Below are positions 3,390 through 39,086 of a DNA stretch of 40,486 nucleotides, in pieces. The notes beneath the pieces are model-generated. The model was not told where the DNA came from. It was given only the letters and a program-made list of their open reading frames with translations, and searched no databases. How positions within the stretch are numbered: position 1 is the first letter of the stretch; each line of letters starts with the position of its first letter. Where the stretch lies: NCBI GenBank assembly GCA_018004935.1, contig JAGNBF010000070.1, forward strand, positions 1 to 40,486, written 5' to 3'. The position numbers and the translations under genes were made by a program. Origin of the DNA: Chloroflexota bacterium. GTDB taxonomy: Bacteria; Chloroflexota; Anaerolineae; Promineifilales; Promineifilaceae.

Positions 3390-3508
3390 GGCGTGGTTCA
3401 AAAGTCGGCAAACGGTGCTTAACACTTTGTAGGGCGATTTGGTAAATCGCCCACGAGACGATTTACCAAATCGTCCTACAAATTTGTAAAGTTGACCTGA
3501 ACCATGCC
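3390..3508. repeat. 119-bp MITE-like element (family A), copy 1
   Basis: Differs from 25846-25964 at only one position that I can find. The ends are inverted (GGCGTGGTTCA left, TGAACCATGCC right). It is flanked by a perfect 8-base direct repeat GCAATTTT (3382-3389 and 3509-3516), as expected of a target-site duplication. Inside are two palindromes around GGCGATTTGGTAAATCGCC and CGATTTACCAAATCG. It is too short to code, so it must be mobilised in trans if at all. Confidence 0.85.
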
Positions 3509-3559: not shown

Positions 3560-3596
3560 AGAGGGTGAACAGCCTGAAAGGCTGTTCTACGGCTAC
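3560..3596 (+). repeat. fragment of the AACAGCCTGAAAGGCTGTT hairpin repeat (family D)
   Basis: Matches the first third of the 98-bp unit seen at 8328-8523. It directly abuts a hairpin-centred repeat. Confidence 0.7.
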
Positions 3597-3720
3597 CCCG
3601 CCCCAGGGCGGGGAACTTTTTTGGGCGCTGTTTTTCGGGGCGGATGCCCCGAAAAACAGCGTTGTCAGGTTTCCCCCTTCCCGACGGGAAGGGGGTGGGG
3701 GGATGGGTTTTTGACTAAAC
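3590..3720. repeat. hairpin-centred GC-rich repeat, variant 1
   Basis: Left arm of the ACCCCGCCCCAGGGCGGGGAAC type and right arm of the CCCTTCCCGACGGGAAGGGGG type flank a perfect 16-bp hairpin at 3626-3661 (CGCTGTTTTTCGGGGC, loop GGAT). Related copies keep the arms but have different central hairpins. Confidence 0.75.
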
Positions 3721-3765
3721 CGACTGAGGCGTTGTGTAGAGCTGACTTGAACCATGCCGTATTTT

Positions 3766-3835
3766 TTCAATAAAGCGTGGTGAAGTTGGTTGAGCCTGTC
3801 GAAACCAACGGCCTTCGACCTGCTAGGGCAAAATT
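3766..3835 (+). repeat. GTTGAGCCTGTCGAAACC repeat (family E), partial
   Basis: Shares CAATAAAG(T/C)GTGGTGAAGTTGG and the following GAGCCTGTCGAAACCAACG with 25992-26090 and 38029-38104. The right end is truncated and runs into the end of the QueA-like gene. Confidence 0.6.
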
Positions 3836-4911
3836 AGATGCAAATCGCCGAATTCGTGCCAGAGGTAACGCTCTTGGAGCGCGGCCGCGTAGGTGTGGTG
3901 GAGATGTTCGCGGCCGCAAATTGCTTCTAGCATCATCAGGTGGGTGGCACAAGGTTCATGCAGGCCCGTGAGCAACCCATTGACGGCCCGTACCCCCCTC
4001 TCGGGGGTGAGAAACAGATTGGTGTAGCCAGTTCCGCCATAGGTGTATGCATTTTCATCGGTTACTGTTTCCAGGGCGCGGACGGCGGTGGTGCCTACAG
4101 CAATAATTCTGCGGCCGCTGGAACGAGCGGCATTGACCAGACGGGCTGTTTCACCGGAAACTCGATAATACTCCTCATAAGGTTTTTCGTTGTCTTCCAG
4201 ACTGGCAACACCGGTGTGTAAGAGTAGGGGGGCGATTTGTACCCCTTGAGCGACTAACCGGGTAATTAGTTCTGGGGTAAAGGCACGCCCTGCCGAAGGC
4301 ATCTCGGCACTACCCGGCTCCGTGACATACACTGTTTGATAATAATTCAGGGGCCAGGATTCGGGTACGTAGTAGTAGCGAATGGGGGTTCCGTGCCGGT
4401 TCAGGTAGCTGATCAGGTCGTCTGGTTTTTCCAGGCGTAAACTGGCTAACCACAATCGTTTGCTCCCGTTGTAGGGTGTGTGCAAGAGGAGTGAAGCACC
4501 GCCGGGTAGGGCATAGGTTTCATGGGCAATGGCGTCAAAGAAGGGTTTGGTCAGGCCATTAGCGGAGGGCGAACCGCTTGCGGCCGCGGCTCCTTCTACC
4601 ATCTGGCGCACTTCTACCGCCCATAGATCACCGGGTAGGTGGGTGGAAAGGTGAATCTTCATTTCTGTGCCATCAACACGAGTCGCTGGAATGGCGGCAT
4701 TGAGGGTGCCGCTGGTATTGATTACCAGAACATCACCTGCCTGCAAAAATCGGGGTAGATCATAAAAATGGGTGTGGTGAATCTGATGGTTGCGGGCATA
4801 AGAAACCAGCAAACGAACACCATCGCGACTCAATCCCCGGGCTTCGGCCGGAGCGTTGGCTTCCAGTTCGGGGGGAAGGGTGAAATCAAGTTTGGTCATG
4901 GTTGTAAACAT
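3823..4911 (-). CDS. queA: QueA-like S-adenosylmethionine:tRNA ribosyltransferase-isomerase
   Basis: 362 residues. QueA transfers and isomerises the ribosyl group of SAM onto 7-aminomethyl-7-deazaguanine at tRNA position 34, giving epoxyqueuosine. Family landmarks are the N-terminal FTLPPELEA followed by PAEARGLSRDGVRLLV, the VLVINTSGTLNAAIPA block, VGTTAVRALETV, and near the end TNLFLTPE followed by VNGLLTGLHEP. The sequence is closest to the divergent QueA-like form rather than the classic enterobacterial one, so substrate identity is less sure than family. The frame could start at 4968, but the extra N-terminus is not family-like; ATG 4911 or 4899 (MTKLDF) fits better. No strong ribosome site decides between them. 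No other queuosine gene is in the window. The SDR gene upstream on the same strand is separated by a repeat element. Confidence 0.85.
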   Translation of the reverse strand: MFTTMTKLDFTLPPELEANAPAEARGLSRDGVRLLVSYARNHQIHHTHFYDLPRFLQAGDVLVINTSGTLNAAIPATRVDGTEMKIHLSTHLPGDLWAVEVRQMVEGAAAASGSPSANGLTKPFFDAIAHETYALPGGASLLLHTPYNGSKRLWLASLRLEKPDDLISYLNRHGTPIRYYYVPESWPLNYYQTVYVTEPGSAEMPSAGRAFTPELITRLVAQGVQIAPLLLHTGVASLEDNEKPYEEYYRVSGETARLVNAARSSGRRIIAVGTTAVRALETVTDENAYTYGGTGYTNLFLTPERGVRAVNGLLTGLHEPCATHLMMLEAICGREHLHHTYAAALQERYLWHEFGDLHLILP

Positions 4912-5838: not shown

Positions 5839-5893
5839 GTTTTTTTCCTCAGGAAGCAATAATTTGTAACGACTAAGTGAGTGTCTAAAAATA

Positions 5894-6003
5894 GGTTCTT
5901 GGGGATTTCGCGGGGTACGGGCAACCCTCGTGGTTGCCCCCCACTGGGCAGGCACAAGAGTGCCCTTCATAGGGTGTCAATCCCTTGAATTCCTAAAGAG
6001 TCC
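5894..6003 (+). repeat. family C (ISL3-like ends) MITE, copy 1
   Basis: Core GGGGTACGGGCAACCCTCGT with a terminal inverted repeat pair GGTTCTTGGGGATTTCG and CTTGAATTCCTAAAGAGTCC. No target duplication is visible for this copy. It lies directly upstream of the SDR start. Confidence 0.75.
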
Positions 6004-6583: not shown

Positions 6584-6633
6584 TTGGGTGGCGCGGTCAG
6601 GAGAGCGGCCCCAGCAAATATTCAATTTATTTA
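6584..6633 (+). repeat. GCGGTCAGGAGA repeat (family J), copy 1
   Basis: TGG(G)TGGCGCGGTCAGGAGA and following bases up to CAATTTATTTA match 37961-38012 with scattered differences. A fragment is also at 13809-13833. Confidence 0.6.
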
Positions 6634-6703
6634 GGGTCTTTGGGGTTTTGTGGGGTACGGTCAACCCTTGTGGTTGCCCCACACGGGGCAGGCACAAGGC
6701 CAG
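6634..6703 (+). repeat. family C MITE, truncated copy 2
   Basis: Left end GGGTCTTTGGGGTTTTG and the core are present; the right third is missing and the sequence changes just before the 3' end of the propeller gene. Confidence 0.7.
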
Positions 6704-6721: not shown

Positions 6722-8119
6722 TTACTGCTGGCTCCAAAAAGCCATAACCCCTTCGGCCAGTGGGCGTGGCAATGAACCATCTAGAGGGGCAATGAGGAGA
6801 TATGGATCACCTTCCTTATCCAGGGCGGGTAATACCAGGGCATCACTCGTGGGTGACCAGAGACTATGGCTTAAGGCGTATTGGTCAAAAAAGGGTAAAA
6901 ATTGGGTCAAAAACAGGTCGGTGGGGGCGAATTGGAGAAGGATGCGCCGTTGGCCGGTTGCTACGTTGACCACACGCAATTCTAGCTGTAGCTCGTCATG
7001 CTGAAGTTGCGGCCGCGCCCACACCCCTTTCCCTGGCAGTTGCACCTCATCTTCCATCTGGGTACTGGGAAATGTCAGGTAAGCAATCGCCTGGCCATCC
7101 GGCGACCAGAAAAAGGCGAACACTGGCCCCGTATCTAATTCTTGCACCGCACCGGTTGTGGCGGTCATAAGGCGCAAGGGACCAAACGAGACATCTTCCC
7201 GGTTCATGGGACTGGTAAAGGCCAGTTGTTCGGCAACCGGACTCCAGCTCAGGGCAACAAACCCTTGATGTTGTACTGAAACTTCTTCCTGGGTTTCTCG
7301 ATCCTGGATAACCAGGCGATGCTGGTTGTTGGCAACAGATCCATAAGCCAGGTACCGTCCTGTGGCCGAAAGCCCGGGCGACTGGAAATATCCCGGTTCG
7401 GCCAGATTGACCGCATCAGCATTTCCGGCAGTATCCATGAGGGTTAACCTGGCCCCATTCCCGGTCACGCCAGAATGGACAAACAGTTGTAGTCCATCAT
7501 TCAACCAATCCCAGTAAAAAGGGGACCCGGTAGAAACTAAGGTATTGGTTGTGGAGCCATCGGCGTTGGCGAGATGGAGTGCCGATCCCTCTTCCTCATG
7601 GCCCGCCAGAAAGCTGACCTGTTGGCCGTTGGGCGACCAGTAGAGGTAGATGGGGTAGTTAGATGAATTACGGTACAGTTCGATTTGTGGGGAGTCGGCC
7701 ACATCTTCGAGAACAAAAACGCCGCCCCCCTGGCGATTACCAGCAATGGCGGCCAGATGTTGCCCGTCTGGGGACCAGGCGGGGAATTGGAAGCGTAGAT
7801 TACCCTCGGTAATCTGGCGAGCATCCTGGCCATCGGGGGCGATGGTGATAATCTGGCCGTCGGCGTCTATGTAAACGATGCGGTTTACGCTGAGGGAGTT
7901 ATCGTTGAGAGGGGGTGATGTATCGGGGAGAAGGTTGGTTTCTTCTAGGGGAATAGCCTGGGGAGGAAGGGTGTTTTCCTCGGCTACCCGTGTGGGGCTG
8001 ATCTGACGTATGGTGATGAGCGCGGCCGCGGCCGCGAACACACCTACACAGGCCATCAGCCCCAATCCTGCCAGACCACAGCCTAGCACCCATATCCAGG
8101 TTTGTTTGTTTTGTCCCAT
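6722..8119 (-). CDS. membrane-anchored TolB/PD40-like beta-propeller protein
   Basis: 465 residues. The N-terminus (MGQNKQTWIWVLGCGLAGLG and on to about residue 40) is a single membrane helix or uncleaved signal. It is followed by propeller blades with WSPDGQHLAAIAG, WSPNGQQVSFLAG, WSPVAEQLAFTS, WSPDGQAIAYLTF and a final WSPTSDALVLPAL, that is at least five PD40 repeats. The related gene at the left edge of the window has the same architecture but a different C-terminal part. Start ATG 8119 is preceded by AAGGGGG. No enzyme motif is visible; a role in binding or scaffolding at the membrane is inference. The gene stands alone between repeat-rich spacers. Confidence 0.85.
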   Translation of the reverse strand: MGQNKQTWIWVLGCGLAGLGLMACVGVFAAAAALITIRQISPTRVAEENTLPPQAIPLEETNLLPDTSPPLNDNSLSVNRIVYIDADGQIITIAPDGQDARQITEGNLRFQFPAWSPDGQHLAAIAGNRQGGGVFVLEDVADSPQIELYRNSSNYPIYLYWSPNGQQVSFLAGHEEEGSALHLANADGSTTNTLVSTGSPFYWDWLNDGLQLFVHSGVTGNGARLTLMDTAGNADAVNLAEPGYFQSPGLSATGRYLAYGSVANNQHRLVIQDRETQEEVSVQHQGFVALSWSPVAEQLAFTSPMNREDVSFGPLRLMTATTGAVQELDTGPVFAFFWSPDGQAIAYLTFPSTQMEDEVQLPGKGVWARPQLQHDELQLELRVVNVATGQRRILLQFAPTDLFLTQFLPFFDQYALSHSLWSPTSDALVLPALDKEGDPYLLIAPLDGSLPRPLAEGVMAFWSQQ

Positions 8120-8327
8120 TGGTAACCCCCTTGACAGCAGTTCTCAATTTGAACGATAAACGTTCCGTCATCCGCCCGGCGGTCAACTGGACATAGTACG
8201 GCCTTTCCAGGCTGGCGCTCTCTATACAGGTGGAGTACGACTATGTCTGAGCTTGTCGCAGGCGGAGCCGGGCTTCGGCAAGCTCAGCCCTGGAGGACGT
8301 GTATCGTTACGCCCATTTTTTTCTCGA

Positions 8328-8523
8328 GAGGTCGAACAGCCTGAAAGGCTGTTCGACGGGTTGGACCATTTTTCGAGCATGCTTTTGGCGGGCAACGGTT
8401 TTAACCGTTGGCTAAACTGAGAATTGAGGTCGAACAGCCTGAAAGGCTGTTCTACGGGTTGGGCCATTTTTCGAGCATGCTTTTGGCGGGCAACGGTTTT
8501 AACCGCTGGCTAAACTGAGAATG
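8328..8523 (+). repeat. tandem pair of 98-bp units (family D)
   Basis: Two head-to-tail units beginning at 8328 and 8426, almost identical. Each contains two palindromes: CGAACAGCCTGAAAGGCTGTT and CAACGGTTTTAACCGTTGG. In the second unit CCGTTGG has become CCGCTGG. Single or broken units occur near 3560, 16161 and 36289. Confidence 0.85.
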
Positions 8524-16160: not shown

Positions 16161-16463
16161 CTCGAGAGGGCGAACAGCCTGATTGTCCATTAAATTTTTA
16201 ATCGGGTAACGCATTCATTGACCCCATTCCCCCTGCGATTCCCGAGGGAAGGGAGGAATTCCAATGGGGCATTTTTCGGGGCATTCGCCCCGAAAAATGC
16301 CCCTTAGAAAGTCCCCCGCCCCTGGGGGCGGGGTTAGGGGTGGGGGGGATTCCATTACCTGATTAATTTTTTAAACGACAAAAAGGCTGTTCGACGGCAG
16401 GGTCATTTTTCGAGGGTGCTTCTGGATGCCAACGGTTTTAACCGTTGGCTAAATTGAGAATTG
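16161..16463 (+). repeat. family D unit split by an inserted element
   Basis: CTCGAGAGGGCGAACAGCCTGA (ends 16182) and AAAGGCTGTTCGACGG (from 16381/16382) are the two halves of the hairpin that is intact at 8333-8355. The rest of the unit, with CAACGGTTTTAACCGTTGG, follows to 16463. Confidence 0.8.
16183..16381 (-). repeat. 199-bp TTGTC...GACAA element (family B), copy 1
   Basis: Imperfect terminal inverted repeats of about 29 bases (TTGTCCATTAAATTTTTAAT left; reverse of the right end TTGTCGTTTAAAAAATTAAT). The centre carries a 17-bp perfect hairpin at 16266-16303 (GGGGCATTTTTCGGGGC, loop ATTC). An inverted copy is at 21885-22085. It sits exactly in the loop of a family D hairpin. No target duplication is evident. 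Confidence 0.85.
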
Positions 16464-21831: not shown

Positions 21832-21884
21832 GGCGATTTTGTAAATCGCCCGGCGTTCTCCAGACACAGATGCGAAAGATTTTC

Positions 21885-22085
21885 TTGTCGTTTAAAAAAT
21901 TAATCAGGTAATGGAATTCCCCCCACCCCTAACCCCGCCCCCAGGGGCGGGGAACTTTTCTAAGGGGCATTTTTCGGGGCATTCGCCCCGAAAAATGCCC
22001 CATGGGAATTCCCCCCTTCCCGAGGGAATCGGCAGGGGGGATGGGGTCAATGAAGGCGTTACCCGATTAAAAATTTAATGAACAA
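21885..22085 (+). repeat. 201-bp TTGTC...GACAA-type element (family B), copy 2
   Basis: Inverted copy of 16183-16381, with the same 17-bp perfect central hairpin (21964-22001). It is flanked by TGCGAAAGATTTTC and CCAAACCTTTCGC, which read as the two arms of an interrupted palindrome. Confidence 0.85.
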
Positions 22086-22108
22086 CCAAACCTTTCGCGT
22101 CAGGACAA

Positions 22109-25845: not shown

Positions 25846-25964
25846 GGCGTGGTTCAAAAGTCGGCAAACGGTGCTTAACACTTTGTAGGGCGATTTGGTA
25901 AATCGCCCACGAGACGATTTACCAAATCGTCCTACAAATTTGTAAAGCTGACCTGAACCATGCC
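25846..25964. repeat. 119-bp MITE-like element (family A), copy 2 with target duplication
   Basis: Same length and orientation as 3390-3508 with one base difference seen. Flanked by a perfect 8-base direct repeat CGATAATG (25838-25845 and 25965-25972). Confidence 0.9.
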
Positions 25965-25991: not shown

Positions 25992-26090
25992 TATCTTCTC
26001 AATAAAGTGTGGTGAAGTTGGTTGAGCCTGTCGCAATCAACGACCTGCGACAAGCCCAGGCCACGTTTGCCCCGAAATATTGAGAAGATA
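25992..26090 (+). repeat. family E element with 13-base perfect ends
   Basis: 99 bases; TATCTTCTCAATA (25992-26004) and TATTGAGAAGATA (26078-26090) are perfect inverted ends. Inside are GTTGAGCCTGTCGCAATCAAC and GACCTGCGACAAGC. It ends 13 bases before the ribosome site of the M36 peptidase gene. Confidence 0.75.
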
Positions 26091-29480: not shown

Positions 29481-29501
29481 ATTTTAGACGCTCAGATGTG
29501 T

Positions 29502-29596
29502 CCTCTCAATAATGCAGGGTAGCCGGAGGTTGAGCTTGTCGAAACCAACGGTCTGCGACAAGCTCAGGCCTCGTTTGCCCGAAATATTGAGAAGAT
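29502..29596 (+). repeat. family E element, copy between PIG-L and MoaC genes
   Basis: CCTCTCAATAATGCAGGG left end and GAAATATTGAGAAGATAC right end, with GTTGAGCTTGTCGAAACC and GTCTGCGACAAGCTCAGGCC inside. Confidence 0.65.
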
Positions 29597-32213: not shown

Positions 32214-32263
32214 ACAGTTAAAAACCCGGTTTCTTTCTCTCTGAAAGCGATGGTTAAATTAGT

Positions 32264-32374
32264 GGGTCTGCGGGATTTCGTGGGGTACGGGCAACCCTTG
32301 TGGTTGCCCCACATGGGGCAGGCACAAGGCCAGCCCGTACATTTGGTGTCAACCCCCTGAATTCCCAAAGAGCC
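32264..32374 (+). repeat. family C MITE, copy 5 with perfect target duplication
   Basis: 111 bases; ends GGGTCTGCGGGATTTCG and CTGAATTCCCAAAGAGCC. Perfect 8-base duplication AAATTAGT (32256-32263 and 32375-32382). It is inserted in the loop of an AAACCCGGTTTCT ... AGAAACCGGTTT inverted repeat (arms near 32221 and 32384). Confidence 0.9.
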
Positions 32375-38012: not shown

Positions 38013-38028
38013 TCGTCAATCCTAAGTA

Positions 38029-38104
38029 CCTTCTCGATAAAGTGTGGTGACGTAGGTTGAACTTGTCGAAACCAACCGCCTACGACAGGCTCAGGCTATG
38101 TTGC
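38029..38104 (+). repeat. family E element, truncated copy
   Basis: ACCTTCTCGATAAAGTGTGG, GGTTGAACTTGTCGAAACC and GCCTACGACAGGCTCAGGC. Its right end is lost inside the 3' end of the RIO1 kinase gene. Confidence 0.65.
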
Positions 38105-39086
38105 CCCCTTGCAGGTGATAAAAACTCCGGGGATCGGTGAGATAACGCTCCCAGAACGCGGCCGCGATCTCTCGCCCATTCGCCTTTACCCCTTGAGAGG
38201 CAAAATATTGGCACACGCGCACAATATCCCGCTCCATCAGTTCAAAGGCATGGGGGTTCTTGCGTGTATCTACCACCTGGGGAAAGTCAATGATGGCGAT
38301 TTCCCCTTCCCAATACAGAATGTTGTAAGCGGAAAGGTCGCCATGAACCAGGTGATGAGCCAGCATGAGTTCCACATTGTGCATTATTCGTTGGAAAAGG
38401 GGCTTTGCTTCATCCCGAGCCAGACTTACATCAATCAGCGTCGGTGCGGCCTGGGATGCATCACCCAGGTAGGCCATAAGAATGGTGTTGCCGCCGTGGG
38501 CAATTGGTTGGGGCACATCGGCACCAGCCTGGTGTAGCTTTTGTTGAACCAGAAATTCATGTTCAATCCAGGCGGTCAGGTCCAGGTCTTTGCCGAAGCG
38601 GGTCTTTTTGGCCATTGCTCGCAGTTCCCGGCTACCTTTAATTTCTTTACCTTCACTATCGCGCAAGGTACGCCCGGCTTTATAGATCGCGTTATTTTTG
38701 AGGGTGCGTAACATGCGTGGACGGTACAACTTAGCCGCCAGAAGTTCATGGTTTACTGTCTCTCCCGCCACACAGCAGTATACATTGGCTTCTTTCCCCC
38801 CTTTGACCAGATGTGTGACATCGGTGATGAGTTTGTCCTGGTAAAAAGAGACGGTAGAGTCAATGACCCACTGCCGTTCATGATGTTTGGGGTCAAGGGG
38901 AGCGACGTAAGTGGGCACATAGGTATCGGAGCCTTCGTTCATGAGAGCGACTTCTGTTTTCCAGGGTGTGTCCTGGATGGAGTGATGCTCTTTAGGCATT
39001 TTCCCTTTGCGGCCGCGATGAGTTTGTCGGCTCATATCGTTAAAATCATATGCTTCATATTGTTCATGCCATTTAAAGCGAGTCAT
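38091..39086 (-). CDS. RIO1-type serine/threonine protein kinase
   Basis: 331 residues. RIO kinase landmarks: the ATP-binding loop VTHLVKGGKEANVYCC, AAKLYRPRMLRTLKNNAIYK (Lys of strand 3 and the RIO helix), the catalytic loop HGDLSAYNIL with Asp and Asn, and IDFPQVV, the metal-binding Asp. RIO1 proteins phosphorylate or act as ATPase switches in 40S ribosome assembly in archaea and eukaryotes; bacterial members exist with unknown targets. The N-terminal 80 residues (basic, Arg/Lys-rich GRKGKMPKE) have no known domain. The frame extends to 39170; ATG 39086 (MTRFKWHEQYEAYD) starts at the conserved part. Preceded on the same strand by a small ORF with terminator at 39258-39392, which may control it. 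Confidence 0.93.
   Translation of the reverse strand: MTRFKWHEQYEAYDFNDMSRQTHRGRKGKMPKEHHSIQDTPWKTEVALMNEGSDTYVPTYVAPLDPKHHERQWVIDSTVSFYQDKLITDVTHLVKGGKEANVYCCVAGETVNHELLAAKLYRPRMLRTLKNNAIYKAGRTLRDSEGKEIKGSRELRAMAKKTRFGKDLDLTAWIEHEFLVQQKLHQAGADVPQPIAHGGNTILMAYLGDASQAAPTLIDVSLARDEAKPLFQRIMHNVELMLAHHLVHGDLSAYNILYWEGEIAIIDFPQVVDTRKNPHAFELMERDIVRVCQYFASQGVKANGREIAAAFWERYLTDPRSFYHLQGGNIA

Follow-up and report, generated by a model that had tools for sequence, protein, structure and literature searches.

What kind of mobile element settles in the loops of DNA hairpins, and what does it recognise there? The question is raised by two copies of a 200-bp element in the stretch of DNA analysed here (hereafter the window; 40,486 nucleotides from a Chloroflexota bacterium of the family Promineifilaceae). 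Working from sequence alone, an earlier note had located the copies at 16183-16381 and 21885-22085, the first in the loop of a hairpin that is intact elsewhere and the second between the arms of a palindrome. It proposed structure-guided insertion without target duplication, and left the family of the element unassigned. The coordinates were confirmed and both placements hold, with one mismatch between the arms of the hairpin around copy 2 (GCGAAAGATTT and AAACCTTTCGC). The two copies are 93% identical (BLAST) and mutually inverted in the window. Their features are as follows.

16171 to 16180, + strand: copy 1 hairpin, left arm, CGAACAGCCT
16181 to 16182, + strand: left half of the loop, GA, in which A is the centre base that is doubled
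16183 to 16381, + strand: miniature element copy 1, 199 bp, without any ORF reaching 100 aa
16183 to 16209, + strand: left terminal inverted repeat of copy 1, TTGTCCATTAAATTTTTAATCGGGTAA, with 0 mismatches to the end pattern TTGTYSWTTAAAWWWTTAATCRGGTAA
16266 to 16303, no strand: internal hairpin of copy 1, GGGGCATTTTTCGGGGC and GCCCCGAAAAATGCCCC
16355 to 16381, - strand: right terminal inverted repeat of copy 1, TTGTCGTTTAAAAAATTAATCAGGTAA, sharing 25 of 30 bases with the end of the autonomous IS630-like element of genome G242
16382 to 16383, + strand: right half of the loop, AA, whose first A is the second copy of the centre base
16384 to 16393, + strand: copy 1 hairpin, right arm, AGGCTGTTCG
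21872 to 21882, + strand: copy 2 hairpin, left arm, GCGAAAGATTT, followed by loop bases TC at 21883-21884
21885 to 22085, - strand: miniature element copy 2, 201 bp, in reverse orientation to copy 1
22088 to 22098, + strand: copy 2 hairpin, right arm, AAACCTTTCGC, preceded by loop bases CC at 22086-22087

The element ends in imperfect inverted repeats of about 27 bp. At least 40 near full-length copies, 93-100% identical, are present in the genome of the window, which comprises 8.0 Mb in 229 contigs. Allowing up to 3 mismatches, the end pattern TTGTYSWTTAAAWWWTTAATCRGGTAA has 307 matches genome-wide (153+154), and its reversed control has 0 in the same genome; 307 ends therefore correspond to about 150 copies. 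Being short, non-coding and multi-copy with terminal inverted repeats (199-201 bp, about 150 copies), the element meets these criteria of a MITE. It also meets the criterion of ends in common with a transposase-coding element, as up to 25 of 30 bases are shared with IS630-like elements of other Anaerolineae.

Nested hairpin repeats abound between the genes of this genome. A second subfamily, with ends TTGTTGATTAAATTATTAATCGGGTAATGAGTTGATTCGCCC and lengths of 125-201 bp, is again found in palindromes (L062, 3471-3671; L063, 3423-3547; L088, 604-804). In one 312-bp copy (L086, 620-931; G000:C116:4919-5230), one end contains another palindromic mini-element, TATCTTCTCAATAACTCGGGG...CCCCGAAATATTGAGATGTTAC; this nested element, apparently with a duplicated stretch of about 8 bp (GGTAACGC), belongs to another MITE family. 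Three other groups of dispersed intergenic repeats occur in the window (3760-3841, 25992-26073, 29500-29581 and 38027-38108; 5875-5958, 6615-6698 and 32245-32328; 3390-3508 and 25846-25964), and the searches made revealed no relation between them and the 200-bp element.

Two hairpin types that serve as common targets also stand empty in the window.

3568 to 3586, no strand: intact empty target hairpin AACAGCCTGAAAGGCTGTT
3674 to 3694, no strand: intact empty hairpin of the second type, CCCCTTCCC-GAC-GGGAAGGGG
8335 to 8353, no strand: intact empty target hairpin AACAGCCTGAAAGGCTGTT, that is AACAGCCT-GAA-AGGCTGTT
8433 to 8451, no strand: intact empty target hairpin AACAGCCTGAAAGGCTGTT

Genome-wide, the intact AACAGCCT..AGGCTGTT hairpin is found in 116 places and the CCCCTTCCC..GGGAAGGGG hairpin in 120. 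The earlier note had named two observations that would refute it: other copies lying in non-palindromic DNA, and flanking palindromes belonging to the element itself. The first was not borne out, since copies lie overwhelmingly in palindromes. Among 63 distinct junction pairs from the genome of the window, a palindrome is centred on the insertion in 54 (score of at least 5, mismatches allowed) and 9 have no clear palindrome; re-pairing left and right flanks at random gives 16%, a control that is inflated since the same hairpins recur. Under a strict definition (perfect arms of at least 7 bp, symmetric loops) hairpins surround 32 of 59 copies, whereas the background, measured over 0.4 Mb of this genome, is 0.27% of non-coding positions (binomial p about 1e-66 to 3e-66). 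The second observation is ruled out: the arms differ among copies and stand empty elsewhere, so that the hairpins are the target and not part of the element. Filled hairpins include at least 15 unrelated arm sequences (e.g. CAGCCT, CTTCCC, CCACGC, GGTCGT and ACGGTT), some of them long-armed (ACACCA, 20-bp arms; CGTCCA, 23-bp arms), and the element is found in either orientation within the same kind of hairpin. When the composite strand is folded, it forms a single extended hairpin in which the target stem runs on into the element ends (z = -8.3). This fold is in keeping with a benign insertion site, without proving a function.

The claim that no target is duplicated held only in part. In odd palindromes with three-base loops the one centre base is doubled (1 bp), and in even palindromes nothing is (0 bp), as in ACGGTT-TT-AACCGT (T/T, the slash marking the insertion) and GGTCGT-AA-ACGACC (A/A). 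For copy 1 the empty loop GAA becomes GA/AA, with the centre A doubled, and GAA is indeed the loop in 48 of the 50 empty AACAGCCT hairpins listed (of 116). The junction of copy 2, TC/CC, agrees with the same rule. Empty CCCCTTCCC hairpins have loops such as AGA, CAC, AGC, TCT and similar, and the filled ones read AG/GA, CA/AC, AG/GC and TC/CT. Overall, an identical base flanks the insertion on either side in 30 of 35 strict cases; an exception is L003, with T/TC in a TTC loop and nothing doubled. TA duplication is absent from the junctions in the genome of the window. Loop size may also matter. Of the 120 empty CCCCTTCCC hairpins, 50 were listed, and 30 of these have a three-base and 16 a six-base loop; about a dozen insertions with CCCCTTCCC arms were seen, every one of the three-base-loop type and none in the common six-base-loop version. 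This restriction to triloops points to loop size as a determinant.

Related ends were found in 12 of 52 genomes of the same family and, in a class-wide scan, in 10 of 396 genomes, other families included. A scan of 85,000 species returned 25 loci, nearly all in MAGs of Anaerolineae or other Chloroflexota. The relatives are 85-290 bp long, differ in their interiors and likewise lie in palindromes: perfect arms of at least 6 bp surround 20 of 40 non-redundant relatives from other Anaerolineae (e.g. L135, L143, L252 and L264), and about 40-50% of the copies in other genomes have no clear palindrome. No relatives were found in viral contigs. A match in Pedobacter and two in Bacteroidetes/Bacteroidales (L148, L164, L170) look like chance and were set aside. 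In the Anaerolineae MAG SJ142 (L168, 7208-7499), mini-elements are nested or adjacent within one hairpin.

The family of the element can now be assigned to an IS630-like group of the Tc1/mariner superfamily. In one genome (G296), an end of the element type, ATGAAGTTTAAGAAAATAATCAGGTAATAG, runs into an open frame for an IS630-type DDE_3 transposase, and further autonomous elements were gathered by DDE_3 and protein searches. Those with matching ends are 1.15-1.3 kb long and encode IS630-family DDE transposases; the proteins score above the cut-off for DDE_3 (PF13358), and those tested reach 140-143 bits for the IS630 equivalog NF033545 (threshold 100). The right end of the MITE matches autonomous ends at 25 of 30 (G242) and 24 of 30 positions (G296), with 0 of 5000 shuffles as good, and shows no similarity to the ends of TA-type IS630 elements. 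The autonomous relatives thus meet one criterion of the IS630 family, a homologous transposase. Another, TA insertion with a 2-bp duplication, was tested and is not fulfilled, and we therefore file the group by its transposase as an IS630-related variant rather than an ordinary member.

Several autonomous elements occupy hairpin tips themselves. The element at 878-2031 of L289 (G242) lies between 25-bp arms with a doubled A, and complete elements were found between arms of more than 20 bp (L353, G153), in AGCCTGCT(A/A)AGCAGGCT with an intact AGCCTGCTGAAGCAGGCT nearby (L348, G256) and in CCGATTG/CAATCGG (L346, G181). The single copy of the group in the genome of the window (L342; C205, about 7325-8509) sits in ACGACT(T/T)AGTCGT; its ORF is split across two frames, and agreement of its ends with the MITE is limited to 13-19 of 30 positions. 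In about 0.4 Mb of this genome, no autonomous copies were detected by pairing of terminal inverted repeats or by long inverted repeats. Other members are less clear. L347 has 5-bp arms, and three copies from this protein group lack a clear hairpin: L343, L351 (3-bp arms) and L352, whose CTA/TAG resembles ordinary TA targeting. The G033 copies are ambiguous; the flanks GTGSGTT recur in all three and could be part of the element. G032 has more than 45 ends, yet no DDE_3 match. The genomes named in the sequence records are metagenome assemblies, in which contig ends truncate many autonomous copies. Control IS630 elements with unrelated ends from related genomes (L280, L282, L334) lie at TA without a hairpin, and plasmid-borne controls (ISSpu2-like, L357-L360) lie at CTAG, again without hairpins; the flanks of these control elements read TA or CTA..TAG. 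In the transposase tree the TA-type rows are separated in part; it is weakly resolved, and hairpin targeting does not form one established clade. Sequence searches returned no solved structure for the query transposase. A DDE_Tnp_1 transposase was rejected as mobiliser, none being present in the genome.

Two side observations concern the transposase genes. Two near-identical IS630-like copies lie inverted a few tens of bases apart in L340 (G033:C2:265300-270100). Moreover, several of the transposases are split into two frames near residue 95-98 (L342, 1161-2295; L343; also partial matches in L341, L352, L289 and L346), and the frames of L345 (387 aa), L348 (409 aa) and L350 are uninterrupted. 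Programmed frameshifting rather than decay is a possibility here.

Taken together, the element is most probably a MITE of this IS630-like group, whose transposase would insert at hairpin apices; transposition itself and its biochemistry are inferred. The sequence evidence, by contrast, is shown: shared ends, the transposase family, insertion at the dyad centre by the MITEs and several autonomous elements, independence from the sequence of the arms, and the 1- or 0-bp rule. Structure-guided insertion as such is supported, and that structure rather than mere sequence symmetry is being read remains an inference. In this view, the transposase would read an extruded or flipped-out loop at the dyad centre and not a base sequence. 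Each 3' end of the transposon would attack its strand of the target about halfway along the loop (in triloops, one base in), and gap filling would leave 1 bp (odd) or 0 bp (even), as opposed to 2 bp in the TA-specific relatives. The substrate may be supercoiled DNA in which the palindrome forms a cruciform or is extruded in part; whether hairpins exposed by replication serve instead is undecided. A relative with AATCRGGTAA-type ends may have mobilised the 200-bp copies in trans, the actual mobiliser being unidentified. In the strand-transfer complex of Mos1 the target DNA is strongly bent and its target adenines are flipped out (PMC5481204), so that a shift of target from TA to extruded loops is plausible. 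By a modest margin, we favour the scenario in which a branch of IS630 exchanged TA for sequence-independent recognition of extruded apices, with loop symmetry setting the duplication, and filled Anaerolineae with hairpin-nested MITEs.

How does this compare with known systems? The group resembles IS630, ISY100 and Mos1 (IS630/Tc1-mariner) in DDE_3, the IS630 equivalog, autonomous elements of 1.15-1.3 kb, terminal inverted repeats of about 27-30 bp and the possession of MITEs. IS630 and ISY100 insert at TA with a 2-bp duplication (PMC2170065), whereas the present insertions occupy the centre of a hairpin, lack TA and duplicate 1 bp or nothing. REP-directed insertion sequences (IS1397, IS621, ISPpu9, ISPsy8) belong to IS3, IS110, IS4, IS5 and IS256 (PMC1525189). 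They share the palindromic target, and ISPsy8 even occupies the axis of symmetry in a predicted REP hairpin (PMC1525189), although it duplicates 3 bp. However, they recognise host REP sequences, while the present group is IS630-like and indifferent to the sequence of the arms. Target choice by DNA secondary structure is also seen in class C group II introns and in attC recombination of integrons: the former retrohome beside terminator hairpins, and the latter relies on a tyrosine recombinase acting on a folded single strand. In our case, unlike in both, an inverted-repeat DNA transposon goes into the loop. REPIN/RAYT elements (PMC3116915) are similarly short, high-copy and intergenic with an inverted-repeat organisation; they differ in their ends, no suitable Y1 transposase was found here, and to our knowledge no insertion of theirs into hairpin tips has been described. 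For hairpin-loop targeting of the IS630 type, the open literature searched holds no precedent (subscription papers were not covered).

Alternative explanations should be considered. The one that survives best, although we regard it as unlikely, is that the transposase senses two-fold sequence symmetry in duplex DNA through protein contacts, without extrusion. In its favour, IS630 itself has a preference for a short palindrome, CTAG, and both bending and base flipping of the target occur with Mos1 (PMC5481204, PMC2170065). Yet the arms have no common sequence, and it is hard to imagine how contacts could read arbitrary self-complementarity; furthermore, triloop hairpins are used and no insertion was seen in the six-base-loop version of the same arms.

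A second possibility is that insertion occurs at random or, in the manner of ordinary IS630, at TA, and that only hairpin-loop insertions survive, as they keep terminators or repeats functional. The intergenic DNA here is indeed full of hairpins and repeats, and the composite is still one extended hairpin. Nonetheless, hairpin centres make up 0.27% of non-coding positions, so nearly all other intergenic insertions would have to be purged and base-exact dyad centres spared. The doubled centre base would stay unexplained, and the junctions lack a TA duplication. We consider this explanation very improbable.

Support is weaker still for REPIN-like elements moved by a RAYT (Y1 HUH transposase) on single-stranded hairpins. 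Size and architecture are similar (two inverted ends, intergenic dispersal), and there is no large target duplication. However, the sole Y1_Tnp match in the genome of the window is weak (389-aa frame, E 1e-6) and not associated with the element, matches of that kind are likewise present where the element is lacking, and G032 is without any. The ends lack a GTAG-tagged REP structure and resemble IS630-like ends instead.

Finally, RNA-guided recombination of the IS110/IS1111 type into repeated palindromes is all but excluded: IS110 members do target REP palindromes (PMC1525189, PMC11208160) and the genome holds two intact-looking IS110-family genes (G000:C25:10098, L205; G000:C19:8063, L210), but neither gene is bounded by related ends, copies 93-100% identical sit in at least 15 unrelated arms that a single guide cannot match, and IS110 elements are not characterised by long terminal inverted repeats.

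We therefore return to an IS630-like transposase that would insert at hairpin apices. If this reading is true, a DDE transposon would have DNA structure, not sequence, as its target, and this within Tc1/mariner, a superfamily for which TA is commonly regarded as the invariable target. The bent, base-flipped target of Mos1 would then be linked to a natural structural target. Which palindromes extrude in living cells is an old open question, and the insertions would be a record of it; the transposase could also serve as a cruciform probe. For these bacteria, such targeting would explain how hairpin-rich intergenic regions grow by nesting while the outer hairpin stays unbroken.
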